Position numbers and translations under genes: made by a program. Below, in pieces: positions 24,402-25,750 of a stretch of 64,000 nt of DNA; position 1 is the stretch's first letter; each line of letters begins with the position of its first letter. The notes under the pieces are model-generated. The model was not told where the DNA came from. It ran no database searches and worked only from the letters and a program-made list of their open reading frames with translations. Source of the DNA: Desulfovibrio intestinalis (GTDB lineage: Bacteria > Desulfobacterota > Desulfovibrionia > Desulfovibrionales > Desulfovibrionaceae); the NCBI RefSeq assembly GCF_014202345.1, contig NZ_JACHGO010000001.1, positions 62,001 to 126,000 of the forward strand, written 5' to 3'.

Positions 24402-24691
24402 AATTGTCCTCCTTTAAAGCGTTGCTTTAAGTGTAAAAATGTATGTAATTTCTTGCTTGTAATATTGTTCTGACTGTTAGTGTCTTGTCATATGCATACT
24501 CTTTGGATGCCTGGACTGCTATAAAGACAGATTCATTTGTCTGGATGGAATTGTCAAATACAGATATAGTAATTGTACGTTTCGTATGACAATGCTGCAT
24601 TGCTTTGAACTGACTTTTGACCTTTGGCTGACAAGAGCGCATACTATAACAAGGCCTTGGGTTCATCTAATTTTTTTGTGAGGAGACGCGC

Positions 24692-25750
24692 ATGAAGCTT
24701 TTGGAAAAAGCCCGCGCTGCTGGCTGAGCGGCAAAACTTGCTCCAGGGGCCCTGGAGCGACTTTTGCGCGGCCTGCCCTCCGACACCCGGCCTGACCTTG
24801 AATCCCGTGTGCTGGCTGGCCGTGCCCGCAACGAAGATGCTGTTGTCTTAACAGTTCCGCCTGGGTACGCTCTTGTACAGACGGTGGACATTCTTGCGCC
24901 CATTGTAAATGATGCCTTCAGCTTTGGGCGCATTGCTGCGGCCAACGCCCTTTCGGACGTATACGCCATGGGCGGTGAGCCGTGGAGCGCCATGAATGTG
25001 GCCTTTTTCCCACAGGCTCTGGCCGAGGATGATCCCCAGGGGATTCTTGCCGCCATCTTGCGTGGTGGCCTGGATGCCATGAATGAAGCAGGAGCGGTGC
25101 TGGCTGGGGGCCATACGGTTCAGGATGACGAACTCAAGTACGGTCTTGCTGTGACAGGGATTATCGATTCCTCGCATATGGCCCGAAATGACGGTCTTGA
25201 AAAAGGACAACAGCTTTTGTTGACCAAGCCCTTGGGAACGGGGGTGCTGGCCACAGGCGTAAAAGCACGCTGGGACGGAGCCGACGAAAGTGAGGCAGAG
25301 ATCACCCGGTGGTGTTCACGTTTGAACAAGGTGGGTGGCGAGGTTATTCGTACGCTAAAACTTACTGCGGCCACTGATATCACGGGCTTTGGTCTTGGGG
25401 GACATACGCTTGAAATGGCTGTTGCTTCCGGCGTTTGCGTTGTTCTTCATGCAGAAGCCTTACCGCTGTTGCCGCGCGCCCTCGAGTATGCACGCGACGG
25501 CCTCATACCAGCGGGCAGTCATCTGAACCGAAAGCACTGCGCTTGTTCAACCCTGGTAGAAGAGGGTGTGGATGAGGCCGTTGAAAGTCTGGCTTTTGAT
25601 GCGCAAACATCTGGCGGGCTGCTTCTGTCTGTTCATCCCCATCAGGTTGAAGAAGCCCGGCGAATGTTGCTGGCTGGCGGCGATTTGGCCTGTCTGGTTG
25701 GCGAAGTAGCCGAAGCCCGTTCAGACGGAAGGGCGCTGGTCTTACGATAG
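24692..25750 (+). CDS. selD: Selenide, water dikinase SelD (selenoprotein, Sec12)
   Basis: SelD makes selenophosphate from selenide and ATP for selenocysteine synthesis. The frame from ATG 24692 (behind GAGGAG) meets an in-frame TGA at 24725-24727 and then continues to 25750, 352 residues in all. The TGA falls where the family has its catalytic Cys/Sec: here KARAAG-U-AAK, with Lys15 three residues on, matching the Cys17/Lys20 spacing of E. coli. Downstream, GRARNEDA, TVDILAPIVND, GGHTVQDDELKYG and TDITGFGLGGH are typical ATP and metal-binding segments. A SECIS-like hairpin follows the TGA. Automatic callers will start at the in-frame ATG at 24764 or another downstream codon and miss the catalytic residue. 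Confidence 0.93.
24731..24767 (+). promoter_or_regulatory. SECIS-like hairpin of selD
   Basis: Directly after the Sec TGA, GCAAAA (24731) pairs with TTTTGC (24762), then an internal loop CTT/GAC, then GCTCCAGG (24740-24747) pairs with CCTGGAGC (24751-24758) around a GGC loop. Bacterial SECIS elements lie within the coding region immediately 3' of UGA with a G-containing apical loop, as here. Confidence 0.8.

Follow-up and report, generated by a model that had tools for sequence, protein, structure and literature searches.

Selenide water dikinase (SelD) is listed as a selenoprotein of Desulfovibrio vulgaris and Desulfovibrio desulfuricans (Zhang et al., 2006; PMC1794560, Table 3). The gene described here encodes a member of the same protein family in the same bacterial group but in a different species, and it is likened to those two proteins through that listing. 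It lies in a window of 64,000 nucleotides from Desulfovibrio intestinalis, by which we mean the whole stretch of DNA that was analyzed. As far as the listing in that paper goes, a selenocysteine (Sec)-containing SelD in Desulfovibrio is the correct reading of an already known case, in print since 2006 (PMC1794560), and the same arrangement has been known for years in Desulfovibrio and other bacteria. For the hairpin, the closest description is the bacterial SECIS consensus (PMC13188914), with which, in the constraints that we compared, its 3-nt apical loop beginning with GG, its upper stem of 8 to 10 bp and its 20 nt between UGA and loop agree; the limits given there are 4-16 bp for the upper stem and 16-37 nt from the Sec-UGA to the apical loop. 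We conclude, with a probability of about 97%, that the window gene is a functional selD of the selenoprotein form, the UGA at codon 12 of which is predicted to be decoded as selenocysteine. The identity of the gene, the codon itself, the conserved core of the hairpin behind it and the machinery genes of the genome form the basis for this reading (Table 1).

Table 1. Features of the selD locus, in positions of the window.
Feature	Position	Strand	Basis
GAGGAG, probable Shine-Dalgarno sequence of selD, 6 bases 5' of the ATG	24680..24685	+	sequence; same in the closest relatives (L025, L026) before the homologous ATG
selD, selenide water dikinase, 352 residues, predicted Sec12 (TGA read as U), stop TAG	24692..25750	+	translation; TIGR00476, E 1.7e-94; 3u0o, E 1e-56
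TGA codon 12, predicted Sec codon	24725..24727	+	opposite the first Cys of AGCGCK in the alignment with 3u0o; TGA in 66 of 70 homologues read, TGC or TGT in 4
Putative bacterial SECIS, conserved core: 8-bp upper stem GCTCCAGG (24740-24747)/CCTGGAGC (24751-24758), loop GGC (24748-24750)	24740..24758	+	upper-stem pairing 95.6% versus codon null 66.1%
Extended hairpin with lower stem GCAAAA (24731-24736)/TTTTGC (24762-24767), the lower part not kept in the family	24731..24767	+	fold; conservation no better than codon null
Truncated frame from TTG, expected from a caller taking TGA as stop	24764..25750	+	mechanical ORF list; 328 aa

The frame opens with ATG at 24692 and closes with TAG at 25748-25750, and the TGA of codon 12 is its sole internal stop. 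Its product scores 316.6 bits against the SelD equivalog model TIGR00476, above the cut-off of 125, which places it in the SelD family, while a second SelD model, NF002098, gave 272.6 bits and thus stayed below its cut-off of 299. Homology to the solved SelD proteins 3u0o and 2yye begins at residue 2 of the ATG frame. 3u0o, which we take to be E. coli SelD, belongs to the same protein family and carries Cys where the window SelD has Sec; U12 and K15 of the window protein align with the C and K of its AGCGCK motif, the Lys standing three residues after U12. We assume that the aligned Cys marks the catalytic Cys/Sec site of SelD, and that the conserved Lys shortly after it presumably has a functional role. 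An earlier note on this DNA had claimed a single TGA at codon 12 followed by Lys three residues on, and both the translation and the alignment to 3u0o agree with it. Pfam matches upstream of selD identify RNA polymerase alpha, ribosomal protein L17 and a short-chain dehydrogenase on the other strand. Downstream follow a tRNA-Leu and then, again by Pfam, trigger factor, a Clp protease, a ClpX-type ATPase and Lon.

The codon was then followed through 199 genomes drawn from the family, the window's own included, 173 of which gave a SelD match. Among the 150 SelD matches listed, 146 contain exactly one in-frame TGA and four contain none (genomes G008, G183, G111 and G180). We read the site itself in 70 loci, namely 30 returned by the family search and 40 chosen for genus spread, with the four TGA-free loci included; in nine of the 70, where the BLAST match began beyond residue 12, the alignment was extended without gaps to cover the site. 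The residue 12 codon is TGA in 66 of these homologues, from many genera, TGC in three and TGT in one. Together with the aligned Cys in 3u0o, this corroborates the claim of the earlier note that the TGA occupies the Cys/Sec position of the family. Since TGA is one base change away from TGC or TGT, the codon might be a nonsense mutation or a sequencing error in a Cys gene, but the same TGA at the same residue in nearly all homologues read and the conserved hairpin core after it leave this reading a practically negligible probability. A search of a phage collection returned two records with short matches covering 10-11% of selD.

A gene caller that takes TGA as stop shortens selD to a start at 24764, as had been anticipated, and the mechanical ORF list indeed gives this frame. 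It could be argued that translation begins only at this TTG or at another start after the TGA, and that what lies upstream, TGA included, is leader sequence or a degenerate gene end; a GGAG within the hairpin sits 6 bases before the TTG, which would fit such a start. This reading is highly improbable, as homology to the solved proteins reaches back to residue 2, the homologues read preserve the surroundings of residue 12 and GAGGAG precedes the ATG at 24692. Moreover, codon 25, which is TTG in the window, is TTG in just 17 of 57 distinct homologues (among the other codons listed, CTT 13, CTG 13, CTC 7, TTA 4, CTA 2), and because of this the putative start TTG 24764 is, judged from the alignment, not a conserved one. 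A normal start downstream of the TGA, which the earlier note had considered in homologues, is thus not what they show. We retain the full-length frame with predicted Sec at codon 12.

Directly after the TGA the sequence can form the nested hairpin with a GGC loop that had been proposed for it, with both stems and the loop present. The 42 bases 3' of the TGA fold with -24.3 kcal/mol (z -4.31), and none of 200 dinucleotide shuffles was as stable. This 42-mer is the single most stable of the 1017 42-mers in selD. Counting both strands, the window has 2054 TGA sites, and 9 of them, that of selD among them, are followed by an equally or more stable fold. Measured against the constraints of the bacterial SECIS consensus that we compared (PMC13188914), the selD hairpin does not differ in loop, stem length or spacing. 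Its upper stem has 8-10 bp, 8 bp of them conserved, the distance from UGA to loop is 20 nt (24728-24747), and the loop carries a G at position 1 or 2 in all 57 distinct homologues in fixed register. In these three respects the hairpin agrees with a bacterial SECIS, and binding by SelB is predicted. No SECIS-type family came up when the whole window and 24650-24850 were scanned with Rfam at gathering scores, and a permissive scan of 24650-24850 returned six weak matches only, all with E of 1.4 or more. By family, four of these six are microRNAs, one is a viral frameshift element and one is the bacterial sRNA DsrA.

The 66 Sec-type sequences give 57 distinct 45-mers, and to allow for the constraint on the protein, pairing in these was compared with a null in which synonymous codons were redrawn 500 times according to the codon usage of the gene concerned. 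At the eight upper pairs, 95.6% of cells hold a standard pair, while the null has a mean of 66.1% (sd 1.6%, maximum of the 500 runs 70.4%), and the four Cys genes reach 65.6% at the same pairs. Pairs outside the 8-bp upper stem were standard in 50.2% of cells of the 57 sequences, compared with 46.0% in the null (sd 1.5%). Since this value lies within the null maximum of 50.9%, the lower stem GCAAAA/TTTTGC is, on this test, not a family feature. As a family element, the SECIS-like hairpin that the earlier note had described is supported in its upper stem and loop but not in its lower stem. The skew of synonymous positions points in the same direction: the third base of codon 17 is T in 55 of 57 Sec-type sequences (14% expected) and in one of the four Cys genes, that of codon 19 is G in 56 of 57 (26% expected) and likewise in one of four Cys genes, and those of codons 21 and 22 are G in all 57 (66% and 53% expected), although related sequences are not independent and these codon and pairing contrasts are therefore not probabilities. 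Within the 8-bp upper stem, four pairs are invariant across the 57 sequences, and two-sided changes that keep pairing occur mostly at the first upper pair (G-C 36, C-G 11) and at the last (G-C 38, A-T 7). Codon skew therefore carries more of the case for the putative SECIS than covariation does.

Fold energy alone was dropped as a test of Sec versus Cys genes and replaced by pairing against the codon null. Compared with their own synonymous versions, just 40 of the 66 Sec-type sequences fold better than 95% (p up to 0.05) and 25 of 66 better than 99%, and one of the four Cys genes also passes at p up to 0.05, which makes fold energy a weak marker. The Cys gene with this stable hairpin is L054 from genome G008, where a profile search gave no selA match and the best tRNA-Sec score was 47.9 bits, the size of secondary matches elsewhere (up to about 50) as against 74.5 to 85.2 bits for clear ones. 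The hairpin of L054 may be a remnant SECIS or may have arisen by chance. Remnant SECIS elements are described for two other Cys genes (PMC1794560).

The four Cys-type loci, L054 (G008), L055 (G183), L056 (G111) and L057 (G180), form one group (100/100) in a tree of 70 SelD proteins and stand beside a Sec-type gene (99/99). With a midpoint root, drawn for display only, this topology fits a single change from Sec to Cys among the 70 proteins. One of the four genomes, G183, belongs to the genus of the window and has a tRNA-Sec and a TGA-bearing fdhA. Its SelD clusters with other genera, and this grouping suggests a transfer.

The earlier note had tied its reading to selA, selB and tRNA-Sec elsewhere in the genome, and all three are present in the source genome (3.44 Mb, 16 contigs, 99.97% complete). 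selA scores 577.9 bits and selB 307.9 bits, or 339.9 bits with its neighbour in the frame, within an open frame of 665 aa; the tRNA-Sec scores 79.5 bits and is called by ARAGORN as tRNA-SeC with anticodon tca. Furthermore, two formate dehydrogenase genes lie over the cut-off (1283.9 and 917.1 bits) with one in-frame TGA each, and a third, partial match below the cut-off (156.6 bits) also contains one in-frame TGA. A hairpin with a loop beginning with GG is predicted after each of these three TGAs (L094, L095, L096), with raw energies of -13.4 to -13.9 kcal/mol, taken without a null. Taking the Sec-decoding trait as selA, selB and selC plus at least one further selenoprotein gene, the source genome possesses it. 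The third fdh-like gene (L096 to L099, G000:C2:495896-497956) is matched by the model in pieces across two open frames and is possibly a divergent enzyme or the result of a frameshift; a similar split fdh pattern is seen on C2 of the relative genome G176.

The UGA of selD could also be read through with an amino acid other than Sec, such as Trp or Cys from a near-cognate tRNA. Mixed readthrough is possible at low selenium, but we regard a reading other than Sec as extremely improbable, since the genome has the Sec machinery and the four of 70 homologues read that lack the TGA have a Cys codon instead. Sec thus remains our reading of codon 12.

In four relatives, G146, G176, G010 and G047, tRNA-Sec is clear (83.3, 74.5, 81.6 and 80.5 bits, respectively) and selA lies over its cut-off, and profile searches of these genomes found no SelD over the model cut-off. 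Three of them (G146, G176 and G010) contain fdhA over cut-off with one in-frame TGA, while G047 gave no fdhA match. The G146 contig with trigger factor and tRNA-Leu, the genes after selD in the window, is 402,500 bases long, and no selD was found in the 7 kb beyond these two (L108 1-9301). In G176 the trigger factor region is unmatched too, and an assembly gap is therefore likely behind the missing selD. Three of these assemblies are drafts (G146 with about 60 contigs, G176 with about 160 and G010 with about 330), and G047 has 4 contigs. Since tRNA-Sec was sought in 24 chosen genomes and selA in 11 chosen ones, the selD-less pattern describes cases and gives no rate. The simplest explanation of these cases is a gap in the assembly or a selD that has moved elsewhere in the genome; a Sec trait lacking selD would be odd.

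From the known bacterial pathway, we expect that SelB together with GTP and Sec-tRNA-Sec would bind the hairpin just 3' of the UGA, and that Sec would be inserted in place of termination by a release factor. The predicted product is a selenophosphate synthetase with its catalytic Sec in a flexible N-terminal loop. As SelD would make the selenium donor used by SelA to form Sec-tRNA-Sec, it would depend on its own product. One might further imagine a dual use of the hairpin, in which ribosomes halted at the UGA at low selenium start again at TTG 24764, which follows the GGAG of the 3' arm. If true, this restart would yield a short SelD without the catalytic residue and amount to a selenium switch for selD. 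We consider it very doubtful, and the retention of TTG in so few homologues speaks against a general role.

The comparative test separates the conserved part of the hairpin, upper stem and loop, from the unconserved lower stem. The case also bears on annotation, since gene calling that takes every UGA for a stop misses the N-terminus of selD together with its predicted catalytic Sec, both here and in the many relatives with the same codon. The locus is a known case in which an enzyme of selenocysteine synthesis is itself a selenoprotein.
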